41,537 nt of DNA from a virus. Where the stretch lies: positions 154,512 to 196,048 of the IMG/VR virus record IMGVR_UViG_3300029319_000002. One strand, written 5' to 3'. Shown here piece by piece: positions 15,269 through 38,219 of the stretch. Both the position numbers and the translations under genes were made by a program. Below the pieces are notes generated by a model, which saw only the letters and a program-made list of their open reading frames with translations, had not been told where the DNA came from and ran no database searches. How positions within the stretch are numbered: position 1 is the stretch's first letter; each line of letters opens with the position of its first letter.

Positions 15269-16333
15269 ATGTCTGAATATAAGAAGACAGCATTGGTTTT
15301 AGGTGCTGGTGGTTTCATTGGAAGTCACATGGTATCAAGACTGAGAGAAGAAGGATATTGGGTTCGTGGGGTAGATTTAAAGCACCCAGAATTCTGTGCT
15401 ACTGAAGCAAATGAATTTATTACTGGAGATCTTCGTGATGTAAATTTTGTTCGTCGGTGCATTAAATATGCTGGTGAGAATGGTAACTTTTATACACAAA
15501 TTGTAGATAAGTTTCTTGAACCCTTTGATGAAATTTATCAGTTTGCTGCTGATATGGGTGGTGCAGGTTTTGTTTTTACCGGAGAGAACGATGCAGACAT
15601 TATGCACAATTCTGTTTCCATTAATCTAAATGTCCTTGAAGAGCAACGTAAGTGGAATGAAATTACAGAACTGAACAAGACAAAGATCTTTTATTCTGGG
15701 TCTGCTTGCATGTATCCAGAACATAACCAACTTGATCCTGATAACCCCGACTGCCGTGAAGAATCCGCATATCCCGCAGATCCCGACTCCGAATATGGGT
15801 GGGAAAAACTATTCTCCGAGAGACTTTACCTTGCCTATAATCGTAACTATGGCATTCCTGTTCGGATTGCTAGGTATCACAATATTTTTGGACCAAAGGG
15901 AACTTATGAGGGTGGAAGAGAGAAAGCACCAGCTGCAATCTGCCGTAAAGTTGCTGAGCTCCCGGAGCAAGGTGGATCTATCGAGGTGTGGGGAGATGGC
16001 TTTCAAACTCGTTCCTTCTTGTTCATTGACGAATGCATTGAAGCAACTCGAAGACTGATGGACAGTGACTTCACGGGACCTGTAAATATTGGTTCTGAAG
16101 AAATGGTAACTATAAATCAACTTGTAGATATTGTTGCTAAAGTTTCTGGAAAGTCAGTAGAGAAAAATCACATCGATGGTCCTCTAGGTGTTCGTGGACG
16201 CAATTCAAATAATGATTTAGTTCGTGAAAAACTTAATTGGGATTATGTAATGTCTCTTGAGGAGGGTATTCTTAAAACTTACAAGTGGATTTGTTCTCAA
16301 GTCGTTTATGTTCCTTTTCATCATCCAGTTTGA
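15269..16333 (+). CDS. GDP-mannose 3',5'-epimerase-like NAD-dependent sugar epimerase
   Basis: 354-aa extended SDR enzyme that, by family, converts GDP-D-mannose to GDP-L-galactose (and GDP-L-gulose). NAD site GAGGFIGSH (12-20). Catalytic segment SACMYPE with the Cys (C147) typical of this epimerase, and YGWEK (Y176, K180). Further signatures shared with plant GME are AADMGG (94-99), FHNI-type RYHNIFGPKGTYEGGREKAP (K219), WGDGFQTRSF, INIGS-type PVNIGSEEMV and GVRGRNS. The match to plant GME runs the whole length, better than to GDP-fucose synthase (WcaG) or UDP-glucose epimerase. First gene of the operon, 3 nt before the GT11 gene, which could use its product. The last ~15 residues diverge. 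Confidence 0.85.
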   Translation: MSEYKKTALVLGAGGFIGSHMVSRLREEGYWVRGVDLKHPEFCATEANEFITGDLRDVNFVRRCIKYAGENGNFYTQIVDKFLEPFDEIYQFAADMGGAGFVFTGENDADIMHNSVSINLNVLEEQRKWNEITELNKTKIFYSGSACMYPEHNQLDPDNPDCREESAYPADPDSEYGWEKLFSERLYLAYNRNYGIPVRIARYHNIFGPKGTYEGGREKAPAAICRKVAELPEQGGSIEVWGDGFQTRSFLFIDECIEATRRLMDSDFTGPVNIGSEEMVTINQLVDIVAKVSGKSVEKNHIDGPLGVRGRNSNNDLVREKLNWDYVMSLEEGILKTYKWICSQVVYVPFHHPV

Positions 16334-17146: not shown

Positions 17147-17865
17147 TGAAGGTTGCAGTCATTTTTATTGGAACTGGCAAGTATCTTGATTTCTTACCAA
17201 AGTATTGGGAGAAAGTCGAATCCAATTTTCTCCCTGGTGTAAAGAAAACAATCTTTGCATTTACTGATGGTGAACTTTCGGATGCTCCCGATAATATTAG
17301 AGTGGTAAAGCAAGAACATCTTGAATGGCCATTTATTACACTGCTAAGATTTGGAATCATTAATAAGATGAAGGAAGAATTGATGGAGTATGACCAACTT
17401 GTATTCATGGATGCTGACACTGTGGTGTATAATACTGTCACTGTAGAAGAATTTTTTTCAGATAAACCATTCTTTGGGGTTCATCATCCTTGTCACTTCA
17501 TGGGTTTTCCTCCACACAATAAACTGCCTGGTGCATTTGAAACAGATGCAAGATCACAAGGATCTATCGATCTAGATCAATACTCCCCTAAAGTGTATTA
17601 TCAGGGATGTCTATGGGGTGGAAAGGTTCCTGAAGTATTTGAGTTGATTGATCTTATTGATGAAAGAACTCAAGTTGATGTTAAGAATAATACTATTCCT
17701 GTCTGGCATGATGAAAGTCACATCAACAGATTCTTTATTGAAAATGAAGATAGGGTGCATCTTCTAGGTCCAGAATATGCATATCCAGAAGTATTTGAAA
17801 GTCATTGCGACTTTGATCCAAAAATTGTACACTTGGCAAAAGATAACTCTAAGTATCAGATATGA
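17146..17865 (+). CDS. Glycosyltransferase family 6 (ABO blood-group / alpha-1,3-Gal(NAc) transferase family)
   Basis: 239 aa, resembling the catalytic domain of vertebrate GT6 enzymes without the membrane stem. Seen are KYWEKVESNFLPGVKKTIF, the metal-binding DxD as VFMDADTVV (D89, D91), YYQGCLWGGKVPEVFEL, and the acceptor/catalytic WHDESHINRFF (E190). Family members add Gal or GalNAc alpha-1,3 to galactose; the ABO transferases need a Fuc-alpha-1,2-Gal acceptor, which is the product of the GT11 encoded just upstream. Many bacterial GT6 proteins have NxN in place of DxD; this one keeps DxD. GT6 genes have been reported from a cyanophage before, as I recall. Start at 17146 by TAATG coupling; an earlier in-frame TTG is less likely. 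Confidence 0.85.
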   Translation: MKVAVIFIGTGKYLDFLPKYWEKVESNFLPGVKKTIFAFTDGELSDAPDNIRVVKQEHLEWPFITLLRFGIINKMKEELMEYDQLVFMDADTVVYNTVTVEEFFSDKPFFGVHHPCHFMGFPPHNKLPGAFETDARSQGSIDLDQYSPKVYYQGCLWGGKVPEVFELIDLIDERTQVDVKNNTIPVWHDESHINRFFIENEDRVHLLGPEYAYPEVFESHCDFDPKIVHLAKDNSKYQI

Positions 17866-18398
17866 TTAAACTCGTAATTTTAGATGTTGATGGTGTCATG
17901 ACTGATGGCACAAAACATTACAACAGATTTGGAAGAGTTATTGCAAAAACTTTTTGTGATAAAGATTGGACTGCCATTAAAAGGTTTCGTGCAATTGGTG
18001 TTCCTGTAGTTTTTCTAACTGGAGATTCATATAATGAAAAGATCTTGAAGAAAAGAAATCTTCCGGTAATTGTAAATCGTGGTAAAGATTTTCATAGGGA
18101 TAAGGCGGATTATCTTGATCAATTATTAGAAGAGTATGATTGTACTCCCGAAGATGTTGCATATCTTGGTGATGATCTATTTGATTATGGTATAATGAAT
18201 GAAGTTGGTCATCCATATTGCCCCTTTGATACACCAAGGATAGTGCATGATGTTGCTGCAGTTCTTCCATGTGCAGGTGGATCTAATGTAGTCATGGCTC
18301 TTTTTGATGAACTTGAAAGTGAGGGATTGATTCCTATAGTTCCTTATGATAAAGTAATGGAAAAAATTTATGAACTTGATTTAAAGGAGAAGTTTTGA
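17862..18398 (+). CDS. HAD-superfamily sugar-phosphate phosphatase, KdsC-like
   Basis: 178 aa, the size of capless KdsC-type (C0) phosphatases. Motif I is DVDGVMTDG (D8, D10), motif II Thr in VFLTGDS, motif III Lys in NRGKDF, and motif IV YLGDDLFD. It is followed by the KdsC-type HPYCPFDTPRIVHDVAAVLP and a Gly-rich C-terminal loop (CAGGSN). KdsC hydrolyses KDO-8-phosphate; relatives remove phosphate from nonulosonates or other sugar acids. Here it is followed by a sugar kinase and a nucleotidyltransferase-isomerase, so it could dephosphorylate an intermediate in an activated-sugar pathway. ATGA and TGATG overlaps tie it to both neighbours. The exact substrate is unknown. Confidence 0.82.
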   Translation: MIKLVILDVDGVMTDGTKHYNRFGRVIAKTFCDKDWTAIKRFRAIGVPVVFLTGDSYNEKILKKRNLPVIVNRGKDFHRDKADYLDQLLEEYDCTPEDVAYLGDDLFDYGIMNEVGHPYCPFDTPRIVHDVAAVLPCAGGSNVVMALFDELESEGLIPIVPYDKVMEKIYELDLKEKF

Positions 18399-19066
18399 TG
18401 AAAGATGTTTCGTTATATGGACACTTGACGATTGATACTATCATTGATGGTGTATCGGAAATTAAAACTTTAGGATCAATTGCTAATGTGTGGAAAGCAT
18501 TAGTTCATTTAGATTCATCTATAAAGTTGGGTCTATCTCCAATTGATATTGGTGAGGCATTAATTTATATCGATCATGATTCTTCTAGAAGATATTCAAA
18601 GGCAGCACTTAATCTAAAGAAGATCTCTCCTAGACTAGTTCCTTCTCATATTACACACTTGTGTTATCTCAATGAAATATCTGATACCACATTTATCTCC
18701 ACACTTTCCGGTATTGTTACTGCAGATGTTTGTCCAGGAAAATCTTTGGATAGAGATCTCCTACGATTTGTAGATTATCTTTTTATATCTGATGAAGACG
18801 TAGATGACTTTGATTCATTAGTTGATTCTACTAAAGGTTGGGTAATACTTCATAGTTCTTCTGGAAGTGTATTTTCTGATGGAATAGAAGAGTACACATA
18901 TGAACTTCCTAAAGACAAAATTTTATCCAATGTAAATGTACTTGGAGCAGGTGATATGTTTGCTGCTTGTTTCTTGTATAAATTATTACTGAATATAGGT
19001 ATAATCACTGATTGGGTTGAATATTCACACTTAAGAACCACTGAATTTATACAGAGTTACAAATGA
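18398..19066 (+). CDS. PfkB/ribokinase-family sugar kinase (short form)
   Basis: 222 aa, shorter than the usual ~300-aa PfkB kinases. The C-terminal signature with the catalytic base is intact: NVNVLGAGDMFAACFLYKLL (GAGD, D186). The N-terminal substrate loop is present in reduced form (LGSIANVWKAL in place of LGGxxxNxA). Expected to phosphorylate a sugar or sugar phosphate with ATP. It lies between an HAD phosphatase and a nucleotidyltransferase, the same catalytic set as in the heptose (GmhA-HldE-GmhB) pathway. The ATG at 18398 has a GGAGA site 9 nt upstream and overlaps TGA. The missing length probably falls in the lid and the central sheet, so weak or altered activity is possible. Confidence 0.75.
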   Translation: MKDVSLYGHLTIDTIIDGVSEIKTLGSIANVWKALVHLDSSIKLGLSPIDIGEALIYIDHDSSRRYSKAALNLKKISPRLVPSHITHLCYLNEISDTTFISTLSGIVTADVCPGKSLDRDLLRFVDYLFISDEDVDDFDSLVDSTKGWVILHSSSGSVFSDGIEEYTYELPKDKILSNVNVLGAGDMFAACFLYKLLLNIGIITDWVEYSHLRTTEFIQSYK

Positions 19067-20220
19067 AACCAAATATTCTTGTACCGATGGCTGGTTTGGG
19101 CAGTCGATTTATCAAAGAAGGATTTAAAGTTCCCAAACAATTAATCAATATTAAAGATAAACATTTGATTGATATCTCTCTAGATTGTTTAAATTATGAG
19201 GGATGCAATCTCATTTTCGTAGTTAGAGATGAAACTGTTTACAATTTTCACATGGATGAACTTCTTCGTAAGAAGTTTGGTGATGATATTAAAGTTGTAG
19301 TTCTAGATAAACTCACTGACGGATCCGTATGCAGTTGTTTATATGCTGAAGAGTATATTGATAATGATGCACCTTTAGTCATTCATACTTTGGACATTGA
19401 ATTCCGACCAGTATTTAATCCACATACAATGAATGATTTGAATGGTGATGGGTTGTTATTAACCTTTAAATCTAACTCATCAAACTACAGTTATGCAAAG
19501 GTCAATGAAGACGGATATGTAACTGAAACTGCTGAGAAGAAAGCAATTAGTAGTAATGCATGTGTAGGAATTTATGGATTCAAGAAAGGATCTGATTTCT
19601 GTAAGTATGCTAGAGAAATGATTGAACGTGACTTGAGAACTAAAAATGAGTTCTATATTTCACCTCTTTACAATCTTCTTATTGAGGATGGTAAGAAGAT
19701 TATGACTGAACCTGTGGATAAGATGCATGTCTTTGGAACACCTGATGAATTCCAGTTTTATAAGGATAACGTTACCCGTCGTATTGGTGATAAACCTATT
19801 GCCCTTTGTTCTGATCATTCTGGATTTGATGCGAAAGAAGAATTCAAAGGACTGCTAGAAAAGCACGGTTTGAGGTATATTGATTTTGGAACTATCCTGA
19901 ATAAAGATTGTGATTATCGAGATTACATTGCACAGGCAGTTAAATCTATTGGTGAAAGAGATTGCGACTATGCTTTTGGATTTTGTAGAACTGGTCAAGG
20001 TGTGAATATTTGTGCTAATAAGTATAAAGGTATTCGTTCTGCTCTGATTTATGATGAGTTTGCAATGGAAATGGCAATCAGACACAATTGTGCTAACTTT
20101 TTTGCTATTCCTGCTAAAGATGTGGATGAAATAATTCTTGAAAAGTATCTTGCAATAGCATCTCTTCATACATTTGATGGAGGTCGTCATCAAATTCGTA
20201 TTCAGGAGTTAGAAAAATGA
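19063..20220 (+). CDS. Bifunctional sugar nucleotidyltransferase / RpiB-type isomerase fusion
   Basis: 385 aa with two domains. Residues 1-~235 form an NTP-transferase: PMAGLGSRFIKEGFKVPKQ (the GxGxR...PK signature, 8-26), an acidic pair in HTLDIEF (metal-binding), and a C-terminal GTPDEF. Residues ~245-385 match ribose-5-phosphate isomerase B/LacA-LacB: ALCSDHSGFDAKEE, YIDFGT, DYRDYIAQAV, the active-site Cys loop FCRTGQGVNICANK (C308), GIRSALIYD, RHNCANF and FDGGRHQIR. The fusion would isomerise a sugar phosphate and activate a sugar-1-phosphate with a nucleotide. I do not know this architecture from characterised enzymes. Overlaps with both neighbours (ATGA). Confidence 0.85.
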   Translation: MKPNILVPMAGLGSRFIKEGFKVPKQLINIKDKHLIDISLDCLNYEGCNLIFVVRDETVYNFHMDELLRKKFGDDIKVVVLDKLTDGSVCSCLYAEEYIDNDAPLVIHTLDIEFRPVFNPHTMNDLNGDGLLLTFKSNSSNYSYAKVNEDGYVTETAEKKAISSNACVGIYGFKKGSDFCKYAREMIERDLRTKNEFYISPLYNLLIEDGKKIMTEPVDKMHVFGTPDEFQFYKDNVTRRIGDKPIALCSDHSGFDAKEEFKGLLEKHGLRYIDFGTILNKDCDYRDYIAQAVKSIGERDCDYAFGFCRTGQGVNICANKYKGIRSALIYDEFAMEMAIRHNCANFFAIPAKDVDEIILEKYLAIASLHTFDGGRHQIRIQELEK

Positions 20221-23500: not shown

Positions 23501-24450
23501 AAGTAGCAATAGTAGGTCCTGGTATTATGCCCATTCCACCAACTGGATGGGGTGCCGTTGAAATTTTAATTTGGGATCAGAAACTGGCACTTGAAAAACT
23601 TGGACATGAAGTATTAATTATCAATACACAGAGTCCTGTTGAGATTCTTCAACAGATCAATCAATTCAGACCAGACTTTGTACATGTTCAATATGATGAT
23701 TTCGTAGAGATTGTTCCATATATTCAATATCCATGTGCAATCACAAGTCATTTCGGATATTTGGAGCAGCCAAGTAAGTGGGACTACTATGGTCCTAGAG
23801 TGGCAAAGAAATTTGTGGAACTTAAACCAAACGTATTTTGTTTGTCTCAAGGGATCAAGGATACCTATCGAAGTATGATGGGATTCAAAGACGAAAATCT
23901 TTTCGTCACTCCCAACGGGGTAAATCTTGATTTGTTTAGAAAAACAGAGAAAGCAGAGTATCCACATAGATCAATCTATCTTGCTAAGATTGATTATCGC
24001 AAGAGACAATATCTGTTCCAAGGAATTGATAGTTTGTGGTTTGCTGGTAATAACTCTGATTCTAGATTTGATGTCAGTAAGAGATGGTTGCAAGAATGGT
24101 CTAAGGATAAACTCTACAATGAACTCACTGACTGGGGTAATCTAGTTCTTCTAAGTGATGGTGAGGCACACCCTCTAGTGTGTCTTGAAGCATTTGCTGC
24201 TGGTCTAGGTGTTGTTGTAAGTCAGTATGCTGCTGCCAATCTAGATACTAGTAAAGGTTTTATCACAGTCATTCCTGAAGATAAAATTACGGACATGGTG
24301 TTCTTAGAGTCTGAGATTATCAAGAACAGGAAATATTCTGTTGAACATAGAGAAGAAATTCTGGAGTATGCAGAAACATTTGAATGGTCAAATATAATTG
24401 CTAAACATTATGTGCCTGCTATGGAACAAATTATTGAGAGGTATCAATGA
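23497..24450 (+). CDS. Glycosyltransferase family 4 (GT-B fold)
   Basis: 317 aa. N-terminal Gly-rich loop VGPGIMPIPPTGWGAVE with GHEVLIIN, acceptor-side CLSQGIKDTYRSM and TPNGVNLDLF, then the donor-binding C-domain with the EX7E motif EAHPLVCLE (E223, E231) and AFAAGLGVVVS. It retains the retaining-GT4 signature but is slightly short, with the KPHK-type hinge reduced (IDYRKRQYLF). It would transfer a hexose or similar from a nucleotide sugar onto a growing glycan at the cytoplasmic face. ATGA overlaps connect it to the HtrL-like and carbamoyltransferase genes. Confidence 0.85.
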   Translation: MKVAIVGPGIMPIPPTGWGAVEILIWDQKLALEKLGHEVLIINTQSPVEILQQINQFRPDFVHVQYDDFVEIVPYIQYPCAITSHFGYLEQPSKWDYYGPRVAKKFVELKPNVFCLSQGIKDTYRSMMGFKDENLFVTPNGVNLDLFRKTEKAEYPHRSIYLAKIDYRKRQYLFQGIDSLWFAGNNSDSRFDVSKRWLQEWSKDKLYNELTDWGNLVLLSDGEAHPLVCLEAFAAGLGVVVSQYAAANLDTSKGFITVIPEDKITDMVFLESEIIKNRKYSVEHREEILEYAETFEWSNIIAKHYVPAMEQIIERYQ

Positions 24451-26018
24451 GCAACTTAGTTAGTATTTTTGCTGGTCATGATGCAAATATTTCTTTTTAT
24501 GACAGTAAAAATAACAAATACTATCTGATTGAAATTGAAAGATTAGTAAAACAAAGATACTTTCGTTTACATGTGGATAATGATACGGAGACTATTCGTG
24601 ATATCCTCTTTCAATGTAGAAATATTGCTGCAACTGAATGGGGAATTGATGGTTTTGACACATTATTAATTTCCTCTGATGGTTGGGTGAATCCACCGTC
24701 AATTCTTCGTGAGGTATTTCCAGGAGTAGATGTAAAAACTATTGCAAGGCATCATGTAACTCATGCTGCTTCTACTTTCTATCTGTCACCATTCAAAGAA
24801 GCACTGATTGTTTCCTTTGATGGTGGTGGTGACGATGGACACTTCAATGTTTACATTGGAAACCAAAATGGAATTACTCTCCTAGACCGTATTGAATCTG
24901 ATTTTGGTGGAGCATATCTTTTATGTGGTTCTTTGATTAGAGAAGTAGCAGAGAAGAGTCGTCATCAACTTGCACTATCAGGAAAATTGATGGGACTTTG
25001 TGCATATGGGTCCATTCGTGAAGATCTGGTTCCACACTTCCAGAAGTTTTTCTTTGATAGAGACTATAAGAAATTAGCAGAATCTACTGGACTTCCTCTT
25101 AAGAATCTTGATGACCCTTGGAAAAATCCTCTCAATAATTGGGTCTTTGAGGGTCAAGAGGCATATGATATTGCTGCAACCGCTCAGGAAGCATTTGAGA
25201 GAGCATTCTTTAGTGTTCTTGATAGATATGATCCTAGTGTTCCATTGTGCATGACAGGTGGTGCGTCATTGAATGTGCTGCTCAATGAAACAATCAAGAA
25301 TAAGTTTGATCGTCAGGTTTATGTTTCTCCTTGTCCTCATGATGGAGGATTGTCTTTGGGACATATGTTCTTACATCAACCACCCATGGAACAGGTAGAT
25401 GTAACTTATAATGGACTTCCTTTACTTGATAGATCTAAGTTAGATAGTTATATAAAAGATTACGATGCCAAGAAAGTAACTAAGGAAGACATTGCTAAAC
25501 TTATTAAGAATGGTAGTATCATTGGGATGGTATATGGAGATTCTGAGGTAGGACCAAGAGCACTAGGTAATCGTTCTATTGTTTGTGATCCCAACATCAG
25601 ACAGATGAAAGATATTCTGAATTCAAAAGTCAAGTTCAGAGAATGGTATCGTCCGTTTGCACCTTTCTGTAAAAAAGAAGATGCATCAAAATACTTTGAA
25701 TCTAAAAACTTTGAGAACTTGGAGTATATGAGTTATGCTCCTCCGGTCAAAAAAGAGTATCAAGAATCTCTTCCATCAATTACTCATGCTGATGGAACTG
25801 CAAGACTTCAAACAGTTACTGAAGAATCTCACTCACACTTCTATGAACTTCTCACAGAGTTTGGTAAGATCTCAGAAACGAATGTTTTATTAAATACTTC
25901 TTTTAATATTAGAGGTTTTCCAGTTCTATCAACAATTGAAGATGCACTCTATGTTCTAGAGAATACTGAGATGGATTATGTTGTAGTTGAAGATTATCTT
26001 TTTAAAGGAAAGTTATGA
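24447..26018 (+). CDS. Carbamoyltransferase, NodU/CmcH/TobZ family
   Basis: 523 aa with two expected domains. The N-terminal Kae1-like domain has GHDAN (10-14), the metal-binding HHVTHAAST (H102, H103, H106), VSFDGGGDDGHF and GGASLNVLLN. The C-terminal YrdC-like domain has IGMVYGDSEVGPRALGNRS, REWYRPFAPF and NVLLNTSFNIRGFPVL. Members make carbamoyl adenylate from carbamoyl phosphate and ATP and transfer the carbamoyl group to a sugar hydroxyl (nodulation factors, antibiotics, some LPS). It would thus decorate the phage-specified glycan. A related gene is familiar in T4-like cyanophages. All key histidines are present, so activity is likely. ATGA overlaps both sides. Confidence 0.93.
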   Translation: MSNLVSIFAGHDANISFYDSKNNKYYLIEIERLVKQRYFRLHVDNDTETIRDILFQCRNIAATEWGIDGFDTLLISSDGWVNPPSILREVFPGVDVKTIARHHVTHAASTFYLSPFKEALIVSFDGGGDDGHFNVYIGNQNGITLLDRIESDFGGAYLLCGSLIREVAEKSRHQLALSGKLMGLCAYGSIREDLVPHFQKFFFDRDYKKLAESTGLPLKNLDDPWKNPLNNWVFEGQEAYDIAATAQEAFERAFFSVLDRYDPSVPLCMTGGASLNVLLNETIKNKFDRQVYVSPCPHDGGLSLGHMFLHQPPMEQVDVTYNGLPLLDRSKLDSYIKDYDAKKVTKEDIAKLIKNGSIIGMVYGDSEVGPRALGNRSIVCDPNIRQMKDILNSKVKFREWYRPFAPFCKKEDASKYFESKNFENLEYMSYAPPVKKEYQESLPSITHADGTARLQTVTEESHSHFYELLTEFGKISETNVLLNTSFNIRGFPVLSTIEDALYVLENTEMDYVVVEDYLFKGKL

Positions 26019-26710
26019 CCGTACAGTTTGGTGTTTTTTATCAAGTTTATAATAATAAGAATGCTACTAGATTTGTACTAGAAAATTTTAGGAAGTATTT
26101 TCCCAACAATCCTGTAGTTCTTATTTCTGATGGTGGAGAAAACTTTTCAGATATTGCTTTAGAATACAGATGCTCATTTCATATGAGAGACAATATCTTT
26201 GGAAATAAAATTAATAACTATGATACTCATTGTTATGATTCTAAGAGAACTATAGAATGGTGGAAAAGACAGAAATTTGTTTCTGAAATTTGTCTTCAAG
26301 ATTATGTGATGATCGTGGAAGATGATGTTCTTTTCCAAGAACATTTTGACATTAACGCACCTTTTCAACTGAGAGGTGTGAGGAGATCTAATAAACTTAC
26401 TGATCCTATTCTCAGAGAGATTGCTAAGTGTGGCTACGAAGGTGATTCTTATGGTATGTGCGGTGGTTCAATGTATAATGCAAAAACATTACTCGACATT
26501 TATGATGATGTAATTGTTGATATTACTGAAAACCATGATAGACTGATATCTGAAGAATTGCACTTCAGACCACTAGGTGCGGTGGACTGTAATATCACAT
26601 ATCACTTCAATAAAAGGGGTCATAAATATGAAGCAGCACCATGGTTAGGACAAATTTCGGAGGGAAATACACACCTTCCTGTGGTTCATCAATGGAAGAA
26701 GCATTACTAA
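26015..26710 (+). CDS. Putative glycosyltransferase with EDD motif (231 aa)
   Basis: MTVQFGVFYQVYNNKNATRF is an N-terminal Rossmann-type strand. YFPNNPVVLISDGGENFSD and DYVMIVEDDVLFQEH follow, where the hydrophobic strand ending in E-D-D (102-104) is typical of GT-A metal-binding sites. The C-terminus has a His-rich end (GNTHLPVVHQWKKHY). Not assignable to a named GT family by eye. It overlaps the carbamoyltransferase by ATGA; the radical SAM gene follows after 12 nt. Confidence 0.65.
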   Translation: MTVQFGVFYQVYNNKNATRFVLENFRKYFPNNPVVLISDGGENFSDIALEYRCSFHMRDNIFGNKINNYDTHCYDSKRTIEWWKRQKFVSEICLQDYVMIVEDDVLFQEHFDINAPFQLRGVRRSNKLTDPILREIAKCGYEGDSYGMCGGSMYNAKTLLDIYDDVIVDITENHDRLISEELHFRPLGAVDCNITYHFNKRGHKYEAAPWLGQISEGNTHLPVVHQWKKHY

Positions 26711-26722
26711 TTGGAGTATAAA

Positions 26723-27856
26723 ATGAGCTTAGTACCATACAAAGGAGTTGAAATCTTTAATGAAGATGGAACTATTAAAAAGATACAGGAAGAAGAGGAT
26801 GGAAGAAGCTATAGTAGTAACCTTGCTAAACTCCTGAAGCAACTTCCAAAGTTGCAGAATCTCCAGGAAGGTAAACAACCATCACCAGTGATGGCACATA
26901 TTTCACTGACTAATGCCTGTAACCTAACTTGCTCTTTTTGCTGCTTTGCAAATAGGGACATCTCTGAGAAGATGCCAACAGAAAAAGTGTTCCAAGCACT
27001 TGAGAGTTTTAAGGCAATTGGTGTAACCGGTGTTGAGTTTACAGGTGGTGGAGAACCAAGCATTCACCCACACTTTAAAGAAATTGTTCAATATGCAAAA
27101 GATCTTGGATTCAGTTTAGGTATCTGTACAAATGGAGCAAGATTTGGTGTTGATCGTCCTATCAAGAAAGATATTGTAGAACTCTTTGATTGGGTTCGTC
27201 TTGGCATGTACGGTTTCTATGAGGGTTATGATTACGATTTAAGTGTATTTGAAGGAACTAACTGCAAACCATCTGCTGCTTATGTTTGGGATGAAAATTT
27301 GGAGACTTCTAAGAATCCTAATATCACTGGTGAATGGAGTGATGTGAAGAATAAAAGAGTTCTTTCTAAGAAGTTTCAAACCACTGAGAACTTTATCCGA
27401 ATGTTAGATTGGGTAGAGGAAAATAAAATCCCCTGTAGAATTGCTTTCAATGCAATTAAAGATGTAAAAGAAACTGAAAAAGATATTGAGACCATTCGTG
27501 GAATCATTGCGGAGTATGAAAAGGATCGTGGAAGAAAATTAAAGTCTGCATTCCTATCTGACTTTAATTTCAAAGGTGAACGTAGAAATGATCATTGCTA
27601 CATGCATATGGTAAAACCATTTCTATTCACTGATGGTTACATCTACGCATGTCCATCTGCAGAACTATCAATCGAGAACAACTACAACTATGTTCCTGAG
27701 TCTCAGTTTGCTGTCTGTGATATTGATGGTATTGAAGACTTTTATGCACAAGGTCCAACACGCAGGAATCATGCATGTCACTACTGTAAGTATGCTATGC
27801 AAAATGAGTTGATTGATGATATACTTACTGATACCATTCACAATGATTTTGCCTAA
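26723..27856 (+). CDS. Radical SAM enzyme with C-terminal Cys-rich (SPASM-like) segment
   Basis: 377 aa. The [4Fe-4S]/SAM motif CxxxCxxC is CNLTCSFC (66-73), followed by ETGGGEP-type GVEFTGGGEPSIHP (SAM amino-group binding) and LGICTNGA. The C-terminal part has further Cys in CYMHM, YACPSAE, AVCDIDG and CHYCKYAMQNELIDD, which suggests an auxiliary cluster (SPASM/twitch). The set is the pattern of enzymes modifying peptides or sugars through a radical; in surface-glycan operons such enzymes can act as epimerases, dehydratases or methyltransferases. Start at 26723, with GGAG 7 nt upstream; an in-frame TTG at 26711 is unlikely. Substrate unknown. Confidence 0.85.
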   Translation: MSLVPYKGVEIFNEDGTIKKIQEEEDGRSYSSNLAKLLKQLPKLQNLQEGKQPSPVMAHISLTNACNLTCSFCCFANRDISEKMPTEKVFQALESFKAIGVTGVEFTGGGEPSIHPHFKEIVQYAKDLGFSLGICTNGARFGVDRPIKKDIVELFDWVRLGMYGFYEGYDYDLSVFEGTNCKPSAAYVWDENLETSKNPNITGEWSDVKNKRVLSKKFQTTENFIRMLDWVEENKIPCRIAFNAIKDVKETEKDIETIRGIIAEYEKDRGRKLKSAFLSDFNFKGERRNDHCYMHMVKPFLFTDGYIYACPSAELSIENNYNYVPESQFAVCDIDGIEDFYAQGPTRRNHACHYCKYAMQNELIDDILTDTIHNDFA

Positions 27857-31637: not shown

Positions 31638-34600
31638 ATGGATATTAACGATCCAAATATGATTGATGAAGAACTTCCTTCAGTGAAAAATTTTATGCAG
31701 AATGAATCTAATCTTCCTTCCATTAATGATTTTATTTCTACTAATGAGGATGAGGATCTATCTTCTTGTGATGAGTTTGTAGAAATAACTGAAAAGAAAG
31801 TAATTGAAGAAGATAGTCATCAACTAGTAGATTCCGAAGACAATTCTACTAAAATTATTATTAGTTTAATTGAATCGTTAAGAAATAGTATACCTGAAGT
31901 CAAATCATATGACGAAGATCTGTATGATTTGATGAATCGTATTGAAGAAGTAAGAAAAGATATTCCCGAAGTAAAGGATTATGATGAACAGATTTCTGAA
32001 TTACAGGAATCTATTCAGGAAGTAAAGAGTAAAAATTTTCCTGACTTCAGGTGGATTGCTAGTACCTTTACCACTATTGAAGAAGATTATGATAATCTTA
32101 ACTCTAATTACGATAAACTTAATTCATTATTAGCAAGATATAAAGGAAACTTTGATTTAGAAATTAGTAATATTGCTGAGTCAATAGATATTTCAAAATT
32201 TGAGAGTGATACAAATTTTAAAAAAGTTAATGAGGAATTCGTTACCAAAATAGATGAGACGAAAAAGATTATAGATGCTCGTCTAAAAGAAACATCTAAA
32301 AATATTACTTCTATAAAGAAGGAATATAAAAACAGTGATAAAGAAATAAGAGAAGAAATAAAAAAAGAATATCTTAGATTGAAGGAAGATGTTTCTAAGT
32401 CTCTAAAAAATTTAAAGCACTCTGATAGTAGTCTTAATGATAAAATCGATCAAGTAAATTCTTGTTTTGAAACACTTAAAAGTGAAATTGAAAATCTTCC
32501 TGAAGTAAAATGTTATGATGAGGAAATTAAAGATGTAAATGATTCTGTTAGCACTGTTAAAAATTTAGTTAAAATTCTTGAAAATAAACTAAACAAAAAA
32601 ACTTCTATTATTGATAAATTAAATGAAAAGATTTCTAGTATTGAAGAAAGTATCTTAGTTTCTAATGAGTCGGAAAAAATTCAAGAGGATCCTCTGACTC
32701 CATTAGATCAAAATTTTGCTACTTTAAGTGATCTTTCAAATCATTACAGATTATTCATTAATCGAATTCAACAGCAACTTACTTCACTTGGTGGTGGAGG
32801 TGAAACTCGTCTTGAGTTTTTGGATGACGTTGATAGAAACTCGGTTAAAGTTGATGGTAAGTATCTACAATATCAGGCATCAACTGGAAAGTTCATTGGT
32901 GCTGATGCTTCTGGTGGTGGTGGATCTATTGCAGGTATTAATACAACTGGAACTTCGATATTTAATAATTTAAATGTAACTGGTGTTTCTACAATTACAG
33001 GTAATACTTTTTTCCAATCTAATGTCCATCTTGGAGATAATGATCAACTTAGACTTGGAGACTCCAATGAATTTAAAGTAATTCATAGAGCTGCTGGTGA
33101 CTCAACTATTACCAGTAGTGGAGCTGTTTATGTTGGCAGTACTGCAAAAGTTAATATTGCCTCTGGATATAACACTAACTTCATGGCGAGATTCACACCT
33201 GCTGGATCTGCAGAACTTTATCATAATTACGTCAAAAAATTTGAAACCACTGCTTCTGGTATTAATGTCACAGGACATACTGAAACTGATACCTTAAGAG
33301 TTTCTGGTGTTTCTACATTCCAAAGTCATGTTCATCTTGGTGATGACGATGAATTAAGGATTGGTGATGGTAATGATTTAAAACTTTGGCATAACGGATC
33401 TAATAGTATTATTAATGATGAGGGAGTTGGTGACTTATACTTAGGTGGTAATTCTAGCGTTAATATTACTAATGCAGCACTTTCGGAATTTAAAGCAAAG
33501 TTTATTACAGATGGAGCAGTAGAACTTTATCATGATGCTTCTAAGAAATTTGAAACCACTGGTGCTGGTGTAACTGTTTTTGGAACTACTGAATCGCAAC
33601 AGTTAAATGTCTCTGGTATTTCTACATTCCAAGGTAATGTTCATCTTGGAGATAATGACAGATTAAGAATTGGTGATGGAAATGATTTAGAGTTGTATCA
33701 TGATGGAACTGATGACCTCATTCGCAGTTCTGGAACTACTCTTAAAATCACAGGAACTAGAGTTGTAGTAAACAATGCTGCCAATAATGCAAATCAGGCA
33801 GTATTTACTGCTGGTGGATCAGTAGCACTCTACCATAATGCATCCAAAAAATTTGAAACCACTGCTTCTGGTATTAATGTCACAGGACATACTGAAACTG
33901 ATACATTAAATGTTTCTGGTATTTCTACATTCCAAAATAACATAAAACTTACCACAGATAATAAAAGATTAATATTTGGTAATGGTGATGATTTAGAGAT
34001 TTTCCATAATGGATCTGACAACTATATTGTATCCAACACTGGATCCTTTAATATCAAATCTCCTGCTTTTAAATATTTAAATGCCTCAGATTCAACTGGT
34101 AGGGTAAAACTTTTTTATGGCAACTCTGCAAGGTTTGAAACCACCGGGATAGGTGTAACTATTATTAATGGAACATCAGATACTGCAACCATTACTGGTC
34201 CATCAAATCTAATCATTGACCCTGCAGTTGTAGGTGATAACACTGGTATTGTAAGAATCAAAGGTGATCTATTTGTAGATGGTACAACAACTCAGATTAA
34301 TTCTACAAGTTTAGAAATCGCAGATTTTGTAGTTGGCATTGCTTCTACTGCCACCACAGATTTATTGGCAGATGGTGCTGGTATTAAAATTGGTCCTAAT
34401 AATACTTTCTTATATGAACATAATGGTGGCACTAATCCATCATTGAAGTCAAGTGAAAATCTTAATGTTGCCTCTGGAAAAGTATATCAAATTGCAGAAA
34501 CCGAAAGATTATCTGCAGATACATTAAGCGTAGGAACTGGTGCCACAGTTCATTCTCCTGCCTCTAATACTTTAACCTTAGGTACTAATGGTACTGAAAG

Positions 34601-37600
34601 ACTTCGTATAACTTCTGCTGGTCTGGTCGGAATCGGAACTGATAATCCAGTAGAAATATTAGATGTACTAACACCTGCAGGTGGAAGAATACAGTTTGAT
34701 AAATCTGGAAGTATTGGAAGTCGTATCTTGTTTGCAAATGCAGATGGAACGGTAAGAGCAAAAATTAATAATTTTGGTGGATCTAACGAAACTTTACAAT
34801 TAGATGCTCCAAGTAAAATTGATCTTGCTATTAATGGAGCAGAAAAAGTTCGCTTAGATGCCAATGGTAGATTATTGGTAGGAACACTTTCAAGTTCTGG
34901 AGATCACATCTTAGAAGTTAATAGTGGCACTGATAATGAGGGCATAAAGGTTGTCAGCACTGATGCAGGTTCTTATATTCGTTTTGCTGATAATAGTACT
35001 ACGGCACAAATTCGTCTTGGAGCTGTTGGCAATGACTTCAAAATTGATGTAAATGCATCTGAAAGACTTCGTATAGATTCCAATGGAGATGTGGGTATCG
35101 GAATTGCTGATCCACAAGAAAGGTTACATGTGGCAAGAATTGTCATGATAACCGGCAATACGCCACAAATCAGACTAAATGCTAATGATTCTGATGCATC
35201 TGATGATGATAGAACGATGCTCGGGCAGGCAACGGGTAATGGTCATTTTGTAAACAGTGCTGTTGATAATGACACCATTCTTAGAGGAACTGCAACTGGT
35301 AATTTACTATTTGGTATTGGCACAGCAGAAAAATTCCGTATAACTTCTGCTGGTAATATTGGTATCGGGGAGAACAATCCCTCATCAATACTCCATGTTA
35401 AGAAAACTGGTGATCCAAATATAATTCAAGAAAACTCAGCTAATAATTCTTTAGATAGAAATAATACTTATTCTTTCCAGTATTCTGATGGTGAGGGAGC
35501 ATTTGTAAAAGCTACAAGACCAAGCAGTGGATCAAAAACTGATACATACCTCGCATTTGGATCTGGTGGTAGTACAGAAAGAGTTCGCATATCTTCAAGT
35601 GGAAATGTTGGTATTAATGAATCAAATCCTGCTTATACATTAGACCTTGGTGAATCAAACTCGACAATTCGTCTTGTAGCCGGACATAATGGAACAGCAC
35701 TTCGTGTTGGTGCTGGTGGTGGAGGCAATGATGTGACTCTTATTAGAGTTGATGGTTCATCAGAAAACGACGGCCATGATGGAGAGTCTGATAGTGCTAT
35801 GTATGGATTCTCTCTTAAGTATATGGGGTCTAGGAGCGGAAACTCTAATTCCCTTTCAGTATTCTCCGATAATCAACAAGCAACTCAAGTTGAAGCAGTT
35901 ACAGTCTTTCAAAATGGCACGATTGGTATTAATAAAACTTTTCCTTCAGAAAGACTTGATGTTGGTGGAACTACAAAAACTGAACAGTTAAATGTCACTG
36001 GTGTTTCTACATTTACTAGTGATGTATCATTTGGTTCTACCATAACATTTGGTGATAATGATCAAATTATTATGGGTGATGGACCTGATTTGAAACTTTA
36101 TCATGATGGTAGTAACAGTTATGTAGAAGATACTGGAACTGGTGCTCTCATCATGAAGGGAAGTACTGTTCGTTTTAGATCCACTACTAACGAGAATATG
36201 CTTAGTGCTTCTCAAAATGGAGCAATAAGTCTTTATCACGATAATAACGTAAAACTTGAAACCACTGCTTCTGGTATTGATGTAACTGGTCACACTGAAA
36301 CTGATACCTTAAGAGTTTCTGGTGTTTCTACCTTTACGGGAACAACCAATCATACATTTACAAACATAACAAGATCGTCTAATGGAGTAGTATTACAATT
36401 AAGAAACACCAGCACTGCTAATAATGCTCATGTGGATCAACGATTTGTCATTGATGGAAATTCTAGAGCTGGTTTTAGGGGGCAGATAAATGGAGCAAAT
36501 TTAGGTGGATTACTAAGATTTTATACTGCTGCTGATACACAAGTACTCACAGAAAGAGCAGTTATTGATCATCAGGGAAGATTTGGAATAAACGTCACTT
36601 CTCCAACAACGACTTTAGATGTTGGTGGAAATGCTAAAATTTCTGGTGATTTGGAAGTAACTGGTGATGTAAAACTTACCACAGATAATAAAAGATTAAT
36701 ATTTGGTGATACTGATGATTTAGAGATTTTCCATAATGGAGTTAGCAATTACATTGTATCCAACACTGGAACCTTTAATATCAAATCTCCCGCTTATAAT
36801 TATTTAAAAGCATTTAGTTCAAATGGTAGGGTGCAACTTTTTTATGGAAACTCTGCAAAGTTTGAAACCACTGGTTATGGTGTTACTGTCTTTGGAACCA
36901 CACAAACTCAACAATTGAATGTCTCTGGTATAACAACTCTCAATTCACTTCAAGTAGAAACTTTTTCCACATTTAATGGAAATACAAAACACTTTGATGG
37001 AAAGTACGCAAACTTTGGTAATAGCACTGACTTACAGATAGTTCATGATGGTGCTAATTCTGTTATTCAAAATGCAACTGGTCAATTCTTTATTGATAAT
37101 AATGCAAGTGGCGGTGATTTATTCTTAAGAGCTAATGATAATGTTGTTATCAGAATTGATGGTAATGATACTGTGCTTACTGCTCAAACTGGTGGTATTG
37201 ATGTAACAGGTCATACTGAGACTGATACCTTAAATGTTTCTGGTATTTCTACATTTGCTAATGCTATTTCTGTTGCTGAGACAATTCAACACACAGGAGA
37301 TACAAATACTTCTATCAGTTTCCCTTCTAATGATTACATTAGACTTACAACCAGTAATTCCTCTAGACTTAATGCTACTCCAAATGGTTACATTCTACTA
37401 GGAACAAATAGTGAACCTTCTGGTGGTGATGCTCATGCAAGAAATGCAAGATTAGTCATTGTTGGAAGAATTGGTAATGCTGCTGATAGTGGTCGTCTCA
37501 ATCTACAACGTGGATCAGCAGCATCTAATGGTTCTAGTATTGGAAGTATTAGTTTTACTGATAGTAGTAATAATGCCTATGCAAGGATTGAAACAATAGC

Positions 37601-38219
37601 CGATGCTGCGCCGGGAACTGATGATTTTCCAGGTGCTATTGTTTTTAGCACCACACCAGACGGATCTGCATCACCAACAGAAAGACTGCGAATCGAATCA
37701 AATGGCAGGGTATGCATAAACCGCACAACATCTCAAAGCGGTGGGCAGCTGTCTGTCGATTACACCAACGGAGTCACTGCAGGTCTTGCGGTCAAAGATA
37801 CACAGACAACCGGCACTGGCATCGTCCTGCACGTTGTAAATGGATCGGGATCAATTATTGGCGGAATCTCACAGAACCAGTCATCCACTTCTTTCAACAC
37901 TTCTTCTGACCATCGATTAAAAGAAAATGTTGTTAATCTTGATGGTGCTATTGATCGAGTTAAGCAACTTGCTCCAAAGAGATTTAACTTTATTGCTGAT
38001 GCTGATACAACAGTCGATGGATTCCTTGCCCATGAAGCGCAAGTTGTTGTCCCAGAAGCTGTTACTGGAACGCACAACGAAGTTGATGATGATGGCAATG
38101 CTGTTATGCAAGGCATTGACCAATCCAAATTAGTACCATTGCTTACTGCTGCACTTCAAGAAGCTATCTCCAAGATTGAAACACTTGAAACTAAAGTTGC
38201 GGCACTTGAAGGTAATTGA
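31638..38219 (+). CDS. Giant tail fibre protein with intramolecular chaperone (Peptidase S74) domain
   Basis: 2193 aa. Residues 1-~365 are a long trimerising coiled coil with an acidic start (SVKNFMQNESNLPSINDFIS) and PEVKxYDE segments (IPEVKSYDEDLYDL, IPEVKDYDEQISEL, LPEVKCYDEEIKDV). From ~390 the shaft consists of repeated beta-strand units. One type is VSGVSTF...LGDxDxLRIGDGNDLxLYHDG...KFETTASG. A second, with seven copies, is RLRI-S-G-VGIG-xNP (GTERLRITSAGLVGIGTDNP). The C-terminal ~104 residues form the S74 chaperone (SDHRLKENVVNLDGAIDRVK to the end), with the self-cleavage Ser (S2090) before D-H-R-L-K. It would fold the trimer, then cleave off. The fibre probably binds the host receptor. 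Two pairs of near-identical DNA segments suggest internal duplication. Confidence 0.88.
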   Translation: MDINDPNMIDEELPSVKNFMQNESNLPSINDFISTNEDEDLSSCDEFVEITEKKVIEEDSHQLVDSEDNSTKIIISLIESLRNSIPEVKSYDEDLYDLMNRIEEVRKDIPEVKDYDEQISELQESIQEVKSKNFPDFRWIASTFTTIEEDYDNLNSNYDKLNSLLARYKGNFDLEISNIAESIDISKFESDTNFKKVNEEFVTKIDETKKIIDARLKETSKNITSIKKEYKNSDKEIREEIKKEYLRLKEDVSKSLKNLKHSDSSLNDKIDQVNSCFETLKSEIENLPEVKCYDEEIKDVNDSVSTVKNLVKILENKLNKKTSIIDKLNEKISSIEESILVSNESEKIQEDPLTPLDQNFATLSDLSNHYRLFINRIQQQLTSLGGGGETRLEFLDDVDRNSVKVDGKYLQYQASTGKFIGADASGGGGSIAGINTTGTSIFNNLNVTGVSTITGNTFFQSNVHLGDNDQLRLGDSNEFKVIHRAAGDSTITSSGAVYVGSTAKVNIASGYNTNFMARFTPAGSAELYHNYVKKFETTASGINVTGHTETDTLRVSGVSTFQSHVHLGDDDELRIGDGNDLKLWHNGSNSIINDEGVGDLYLGGNSSVNITNAALSEFKAKFITDGAVELYHDASKKFETTGAGVTVFGTTESQQLNVSGISTFQGNVHLGDNDRLRIGDGNDLELYHDGTDDLIRSSGTTLKITGTRVVVNNAANNANQAVFTAGGSVALYHNASKKFETTASGINVTGHTETDTLNVSGISTFQNNIKLTTDNKRLIFGNGDDLEIFHNGSDNYIVSNTGSFNIKSPAFKYLNASDSTGRVKLFYGNSARFETTGIGVTIINGTSDTATITGPSNLIIDPAVVGDNTGIVRIKGDLFVDGTTTQINSTSLEIADFVVGIASTATTDLLADGAGIKIGPNNTFLYEHNGGTNPSLKSSENLNVASGKVYQIAETERLSADTLSVGTGATVHSPASNTLTLGTNGTERLRITSAGLVGIGTDNPVEILDVLTPAGGRIQFDKSGSIGSRILFANADGTVRAKINNFGGSNETLQLDAPSKIDLAINGAEKVRLDANGRLLVGTLSSSGDHILEVNSGTDNEGIKVVSTDAGSYIRFADNSTTAQIRLGAVGNDFKIDVNASERLRIDSNGDVGIGIADPQERLHVARIVMITGNTPQIRLNANDSDASDDDRTMLGQATGNGHFVNSAVDNDTILRGTATGNLLFGIGTAEKFRITSAGNIGIGENNPSSILHVKKTGDPNIIQENSANNSLDRNNTYSFQYSDGEGAFVKATRPSSGSKTDTYLAFGSGGSTERVRISSSGNVGINESNPAYTLDLGESNSTIRLVAGHNGTALRVGAGGGGNDVTLIRVDGSSENDGHDGESDSAMYGFSLKYMGSRSGNSNSLSVFSDNQQATQVEAVTVFQNGTIGINKTFPSERLDVGGTTKTEQLNVTGVSTFTSDVSFGSTITFGDNDQIIMGDGPDLKLYHDGSNSYVEDTGTGALIMKGSTVRFRSTTNENMLSASQNGAISLYHDNNVKLETTASGIDVTGHTETDTLRVSGVSTFTGTTNHTFTNITRSSNGVVLQLRNTSTANNAHVDQRFVIDGNSRAGFRGQINGANLGGLLRFYTAADTQVLTERAVIDHQGRFGINVTSPTTTLDVGGNAKISGDLEVTGDVKLTTDNKRLIFGDTDDLEIFHNGVSNYIVSNTGTFNIKSPAYNYLKAFSSNGRVQLFYGNSAKFETTGYGVTVFGTTQTQQLNVSGITTLNSLQVETFSTFNGNTKHFDGKYANFGNSTDLQIVHDGANSVIQNATGQFFIDNNASGGDLFLRANDNVVIRIDGNDTVLTAQTGGIDVTGHTETDTLNVSGISTFANAISVAETIQHTGDTNTSISFPSNDYIRLTTSNSSRLNATPNGYILLGTNSEPSGGDAHARNARLVIVGRIGNAADSGRLNLQRGSAASNGSSIGSISFTDSSNNAYARIETIADAAPGTDDFPGAIVFSTTPDGSASPTERLRIESNGRVCINRTTSQSGGQLSVDYTNGVTAGLAVKDTQTTGTGIVLHVVNGSGSIIGGISQNQSSTSFNTSSDHRLKENVVNLDGAIDRVKQLAPKRFNFIADADTTVDGFLAHEAQVVVPEAVTGTHNEVDDDGNAVMQGIDQSKLVPLLTAALQEAISKIETLETKVAALEGN
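33233..33292 (+). repeat. 60-bp exact direct repeat in tail-fibre gene, copy 1
   Basis: A 60-nt stretch encoding KKFETTASGINVTGHTETDT is identical to 33845-33904, 612 bp (204 codons) away and in frame. Exact identity at the DNA level, not just the protein level, points to recent copying or gene conversion. Confidence 0.85.
33845..33904 (+). repeat. 60-bp exact direct repeat in tail-fibre gene, copy 2
   Basis: Identical to 33233-33292. Recombination between the two copies would remove or add exactly 204 codons and keep the frame. Confidence 0.85.
33943..34070 (+). repeat. Second direct repeat in tail-fibre gene, copy 1 (38-bp exact core)
   Basis: The first 38 bases (33943-33980) are identical to 36670-36707, 2727 bp (909 codons) away and in frame. 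Similarity continues for about 100 further bases. Confidence 0.75.
36670..36800 (+). repeat. Second direct repeat in tail-fibre gene, copy 2
   Basis: Counterpart of 33943-34070, encoding KLTTDNKRLIFG and the following strand ('DDLEIFHNG'). The distance keeps the reading frame. Confidence 0.75.

Follow-up and report, generated by a model that had tools for sequence, protein, structure and literature searches.

The window analysed here is the terminal 41.5 kb (41,537 nucleotides) of a 196-kb cyanophage record (IMGVR_UViG_3300029319_000002), in which a glycan island carries a cassette of overlapping genes for predicted sugar-phosphate enzymes. The nearest named relatives at the cassette locus are the Synechococcus phages SynMITS9220M01 and Bellamy (Kyanoviridae), and Bellamy has the cassette. 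Three open reading frames (ORFs; 17862-18398, 18395-19066 and 19063-20220, of 178, 223 and 385 amino acids) overlap by 1-4 bases and encode a KdsC-like phosphatase of the HAD family, a PfkB-like kinase and a fusion of a nucleotidyltransferase (NTase) to an RpiB-type isomerase (Table 1). This gene set had been named in the initial annotation of the locus, and its ORFs, folds and catalytic motifs are confirmed here; the span annotated at the time, 17862-20220, takes in the three genes but stops before two further conserved genes, encoding a cupin-like protein and a miniature GDPD-fold protein.

Table 1 Cassette genes and the neighbouring epimerase homologue, in coordinates of the window
Feature	Coordinates	Strand	Basis
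KdsC-like (HAD-IIIA, C0 type) sugar-phosphate phosphatase, 178 aa	17862..18398	+	NCBIfam and PDB matches, KdsC/YrbI family
Short PfkB/ribokinase-fold kinase, 222 aa from ATG	18398..19066	+	AlphaFold2 and Foldseek, weak Pfam match
NTase domain, fusion residues 1-243	19063..19791	+	Pfam NTP_transferase match
RpiB/LacAB-type sugar-phosphate isomerase domain, fusion residues 244-385	19792..20220	+	LacAB_rpiB 4.8e-30 (residues 246-383)
Cupin-like protein, 106 aa	20217..20537	+	Conserved cassette member, metal-site motif
Miniature GDPD-fold protein, 152 aa	20534..20992	+	AlphaFold2 pLDDT 94.8; conserved module member
GDP-mannose 3,5-epimerase (GME) homologue	15269..16333	+	Plant GME structures, 2c59 E=2e-83; upstream of cassette

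The phosphatase finds its top NCBIfam families among KDN-9-P phosphatases (1.9e-21) and KdsC (4.6e-20), all under the curated cut-offs. It misses the KdsC equivalog score (NF007019, 68.5 bits against a cut-off of 208) as well as that of the related NF058599 (76.9 against 180), and the GmhB model gives 13.5 bits (cut-off 178), compared with 72-77 bits for the KdsC and KDN phosphatase models. Residues D8, D10, K81, D104, D105 and D108 are invariant in 83 sequences, position 53 being T or S. The kinase is matched weakly at the sequence level (Pfam PfkB, 6.9e-4, 19.5 bits, under the 25.8 cut-off); its AlphaFold2 model (pLDDT 94) is matched by Foldseek to ribokinase-family structures at 5e-12 with TMq values of 0.74-0.78, and the substrate-binding aspartate D14, the G27...N31 motif and the GAGD loop (G184, G186, D187) are conserved in 86-87 of 87 relatives. 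Judged by its modelled fold and these motifs, the short protein is a member of the PfkB/ribokinase family, trimmed by about 80 residues (some 222 instead of the usual 300 or so). Translation from TTG at 18395 would give 223 residues; initiation at the ATG of position 18398 is more natural.

In the fusion protein, residues 1-240 are NTP_transferase-like (RmlA/GlmU-like), with 4evw as the closest solved structure (1e-25), and G11, R15, K25, D111, K159 and E196 are conserved in 100-101 of 101 sequences. The RpiB domain passes the TIGR00689 subfamily cut-off (93.6 against 88.3 bits), fails the ribose-5-phosphate isomerase B equivalog TIGR01120 (92.2 bits, cut-off 138.65) and also matches LacA (1e-15) and LacB (6.5e-12) in NCBIfam. 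Its catalytic residues D8, H9, Y42, C65, H98, R132 and R136 (domain numbering) are invariant in 63 sequences, and its active-site loop reads CRTGQGVN in place of the canonical CGTGxGxS, with the clade-specific R66, Q69 and N72 invariant in all 63. The cupin-like protein carries the motif G-x5-H-x-H-x4-E-x6-G, in textbook metal-site spacing, and H44, H46, E51 and G58 are invariant in 72 sequences. For the model of the GDPD-like protein the top PDB matches are mostly GDPDs, yet E-values reach only about 1e-3 and Pfam gives no match; H6, E35, D37, H51 and H73 are invariant in 85 sequences and K75 is present in 84. Classical GDPDs carry E-x-K, in place of which this clade has H73-x-K75. Catalytic residues are accordingly retained, essentially without variation, across 63-101 sequences.

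The cassette occurs in dozens of viral contigs. Linkage was counted over 77 distinct viral PfkB genes whose flanks were long enough; these loci were retrieved by PfkB or NTase searches and many of them are related, so that they do not represent 77 independent events, although their flanks were not selected for. The phosphatase gene lies directly upstream of the PfkB gene and the NTase gene directly downstream in 77/77 loci, which bears out the co-occurrence expected in the initial annotation. The overlap between the phosphatase and kinase genes is mostly 1 or 4 bases, and the genes flanking the cassette vary between contigs. When the window is compared with L002, its nearest relative, dN/dS is 0.05 for the phosphatase, 0.13 for the kinase, 0.05 for the NTase and 0.015 for RpiB, and values in another six pairs stay at or below 0.26, indicating purifying selection on each part tested. 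Since the order recurs at every one of the viral loci under such selection, it is not due to chance. A cupin gene follows the NTase no more than 3 kb downstream of PfkB in 65 of the 69 testable loci, and a GDPD-like gene is found near PfkB in 51 of 54. The conserved unit is thus bigger than the phosphatase, the kinase and the NTase-RpiB fusion: the cupin and the GDPD-like protein belong to it.

The isomerase, by contrast, is an add-on outside the invariant core. RpiB is fused to the NTase in 62 of the 77 loci; five others have a split transketolase, ten have neither and none has both. The module of four steps proposed earlier therefore does not hold as a unit, RpiB being missing from 15/77 loci and the cupin and GDPD genes being nearly always present. 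The split transketolase is short and lies directly upstream of the cassette (L041:3881-5001; also L130, L131, L132 and L139); it comprises about 213 and 160 residues, with thiamine pyrophosphate-binding and pyrimidine domains and no C-terminal domain. In Synechococcus phage S-SKS1 (L047:4998-6425), a related NTase is fused to a 3,4-dihydroxy-2-butanone 4-phosphate (DHBP) synthase domain (Pfam, 5e-65). The substrate of DHBP synthase is ribulose-5-phosphate, and RpiB, transketolase and DHBP synthase all act on the pentose-phosphate pool.

Homologues of the NTase that are accompanied by none of PfkB, KdsC-like phosphatase or RpiB are found in Lachnospiraceae, Campylobacter bilis, Pelagibacter, Poseidoniales and other phages, usually together with the cupin, the GDPD-like protein or both. 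Identities to the cassette proteins are mostly 36-46% for the NTase, 33-42% for the cupin and 43-47% for the GDPD-like protein (Pelagibacter, Poseidoniales). In Lachnospiraceae and Campylobacter, the cupin gene is located between two NTase genes; the C. bilis cluster (L076:1551-6048) consists of a GDPD-like protein, a beta-phosphoglucomutase (beta-PGM)-like HAD protein, an NTase, a cupin and an NTase-methyltransferase fusion, and the Lachnospiraceae clusters are similar. The GDPD-like family is linked to this NTase family in phages, bacteria and archaea alike. The HAD protein of these PfkB-less relatives, which stands beside the NTase or is fused to it, has the beta-phosphoglucomutase family as its top NCBIfam match (8.5e-31 and 1.1e-34). 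If it were a mutase converting a sugar-n-phosphate into a sugar-1-phosphate, its one step would replace the two steps of PfkB and the KdsC-like phosphatase. That such a protein takes their place is our main argument that kinase and phosphatase would jointly yield a sugar-1-phosphate.

The short PfkB itself was absent (E<=1e-12) from 247 Pelagibacterales, 399 Pseudomonadota and 396 Bacteroidota genomes, a sample without Cyanobacteria, save for one contig. This exception (L048, PACT01000001.1; 93% identity) is cyanophage-like, was binned with a Crocinitomicaceae metagenome-assembled genome and, with 15,998 bp equal to the viral contig IMGVR_UViG_2825980227_000005, is almost surely a misbinned phage. 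Among 300 Bacillota and 200 Campylobacterota genomes, none showed an NTase-RpiB fusion. The phrog_3980 control genomes were all positive, presumably through generic domains, and are hence uninformative. The literature searched holds no account of the cassette.

Set against known systems, the cassette resembles the ADP-heptose pathway, in which GmhA is an SIS-type isomerase, HldE joins a PfkB-type C1 kinase to an NTase and GmhB is a HAD phosphatase. Isomerase, PfkB-type kinase, HAD phosphatase and NTase recur in both. However, the cassette has RpiB instead of the SIS-type GmhA, and its proteins give no SIS match in Pfam; its NTase is GT-A-like (NTP_transferase family), unlike the cytidylyltransferase-like C-terminal domain of HldE, and is fused to the isomerase, whereas that of HldE is fused to the kinase; its phosphatase is KdsC-like rather than GmhB-like; and it lacks HldD, contains the cupin and GDPD-like proteins, and does not always have an isomerase. 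The initial annotation had drawn the same parallel while assigning every enzyme to a different subfamily; this is true of the isomerase and of the NTase fold, which are unrelated, whereas the kinase shares the PfkB superfamily with HldE and both phosphatases are HAD proteins. The reaction types do match those of the ADP-heptose pathway, which starts from a pentose-phosphate-pathway intermediate (PMC10948575). Membership in a true heptose pathway was rejected on the features of the SIS isomerase, GmhB phosphatase and HldE-type NTase. The GDP-heptose pathway (GmhA, HddA, GmhB, HddC) has a GT-A-like NTase, as the cassette does, and follows the same chemical logic, but its kinase HddA is a GHMP kinase instead of PfkB, its isomerase is another one and the cassette NTase has no HddC match in NCBIfam. 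The cluster with the composition GDPD, beta-PGM-like HAD, NTase, cupin, NTase, present in Lachnospiraceae, Campylobacter, Pelagibacter and Poseidoniales, shares a homologous NTase, the cupin and the GDPD-like protein, and differs in having the beta-PGM-like protein instead of PfkB, KdsC-like phosphatase and RpiB.

On balance we favour, with modest confidence, a heptose-like bisphosphate route by which the cassette would convert a sugar phosphate of central metabolism into a nucleoside diphosphate (NDP)-sugar for glycans. In the order of steps that we infer, an optional supply enzyme (the fused RpiB, or elsewhere the split transketolase) would tap the pentose-phosphate pool for a sugar phosphate, and ribose-5-phosphate is the simplest candidate, being the intermediate that most economically links RpiB, transketolase and host supply. 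PfkB would add a phosphate at the anomeric position, yielding a 1,5- (or 1,n-) bisphosphate, from which the KdsC-like phosphatase would strip the terminal phosphate to leave a sugar-1-phosphate, and the NTase would activate the latter with a nucleotide. Epimerisation, isomerisation or finishing of the product, ahead of its use by the island's glycosyltransferases, may fall to the cupin and GDPD-like proteins. The phage genome also carries adjacent homologues of gnd, zwf and talC, 74-77% identical to cyanophage genes, and these could boost the supply of pentose phosphate. What argues for the bisphosphate route is the linkage throughout the 77 loci, the near-invariant catalytic residues, the purifying selection on each part tested, the kinase fold, the mutual exclusion of RpiB and transketolase, the DHBP synthase fusion of S-SKS1, the presence of zwf, gnd and talC, and the replacement by the beta-PGM-like protein.

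In its most specific form, with RpiB or the split transketolase, PfkB as a pentose-5-phosphate 1-kinase, the KdsC-like protein as a 5-phosphatase and a pentose-1-phosphate NTase, boosted by zwf, gnd and talC and feeding glycans, the route would lead to an NDP-pentose, a possibility that we put forward tentatively. Known ribofuranose incorporation draws on phosphoribosyl pyrophosphate (PRPP) or undecaprenyl-P-ribose and employs no NTP-sugar nucleotidyltransferase (PMC11127046), for which reason an NDP-pentose route would be new; it would share with the PRPP-based system a possible passage from the pentose-phosphate pool to a surface glycan. There is a realistic chance that the cassette represents a new NDP-sugar pathway.

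Several findings weigh against the bisphosphate route from pentose phosphates. In addition to the loci without RpiB, the NTase tree shows a clustered distribution of RpiB and transketolase, with 3 changes in all, hence few events, which makes the swap of supply enzymes suggestive rather than strong. The invariant R66, Q69 and N72 of the active-site loop suggest that the RpiB substrate may be other than plain ribose-5-phosphate. The beta-phosphoglucomutase match of the replacing protein is under the curated cut-off (best 120 of 153 bits), in a family that includes phosphatases. A route through a sugar-1-phosphate leaves the need for a GDPD-fold protein unexplained. The earlier proposal, that a pentose or hexose phosphate would be turned into an NDP-sugar for the downstream transferases, is unsupported as stated, though it is still the best that we can infer; its observation is confirmed and its interpretation partly supported.

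Among the alternatives, a heptose or hexose phosphate may be the substrate, with RpiB acting on sedoheptulose-7-phosphate, fructose-6-phosphate or allulose-6-phosphate and the product an analogue of ADP- or GDP-heptose or of GDP-mannose, perhaps feeding the GME. Members of the RpiB family such as LacAB also act on hexose phosphates, and the cassette domain matches LacA and LacB; heptose derives from sedoheptulose-7-phosphate (PMC10948575), which transketolase can make; a GME homologue is often adjacent; and heptose genes are reported in the relative SynMITS9220M01 (PMC7378029). General statements that cyanophages have genes for heptose, GDP-mannose and fucose exist in the literature (PMC7378029, PMC9602691). 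However, related phages hold separate heptose-like kinase and NTase genes beside the cassette, which would make it redundant, many of the cassette loci show no epimerase nearby, and the cassettes with transketolase lack an aldose-ketose isomerase. We consider this explanation unlikely.

Somewhat less likely again is an NTase that activates a non-anomeric phosphate, as in CDP-6-fructose, CDP-ribitol or CDP-glycerol, for later phosphodiester linkage, with the phosphatase, kinase and GDPD-like protein tuning or trimming phosphates. The NTase HS5.18 of a capsule locus makes CDP-6-fructose (PMC10918830), the GDPD-fold member is conserved and comes from a phosphodiester-cleaving family, and a ketose phosphate is substrate or product of each of RpiB, transketolase and DHBP synthase. 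Yet HS5.18 belongs to the IspD family (PF01128), which the cassette NTase matches weakly (0.012), the cassette has no reductase, and the invariance of both kinase and phosphatase would be unexplained. As their NTase is of the IspD family, the CDP-6-fructose/glucitol enzymes (PMC10918830) are not the same system. It is very improbable that unrelated auxiliary genes were merely stacked in a hypervariable glycan island: the flanks of the cassette do shuffle, but linkage at every locus with overlaps of 1-4 bases, together with the domain fusion, largely refutes it. We reject, as the most improbable of all, a Kdo-like (ulosonic acid) pathway with an isomerase possibly making arabinose-5-phosphate: the phosphatase is closest to KDN-9-P and Kdo-8-P phosphatases, but no phosphoenolpyruvate-condensing synthase was recognised in the glycan island, the conserved genes of the cassette include none, the NTase is no CMP-Kdo synthetase, and such a pathway has no place for a PfkB kinase.

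The surroundings of the cassette are those of a glycan island. Upstream, the GME homologue adjoins GT11 and GT6 glycosyltransferases and suggests that the island uses GDP-L-galactose or L-gulose; it is a frequent neighbour of the cassette, many of the first 40 viral loci carrying a copy at 66-97% identity, but lies outside the invariant core, many other loci having no epimerase nearby. The island also encodes a NodU-like carbamoyltransferase, a 231-aa protein and a radical SAM protein (24447-27856), and one ORF of 2193 aa occupies 31638-38219, close to the end of the phage record. Ribonucleotide reductase genes are present in the window as well.

If the bisphosphate route from the pentose-phosphate pool is true, cyanophage remodelling of pentose-phosphate metabolism would feed surface or virion glycans too, and not nucleotides alone. 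The cassette puts names to five conserved proteins that are mostly annotated as hypothetical or simply as "phosphatase"; working out what it makes would give a role to many phage genes that lack annotation and would bear on the related cluster in gut and Campylobacter genomes.

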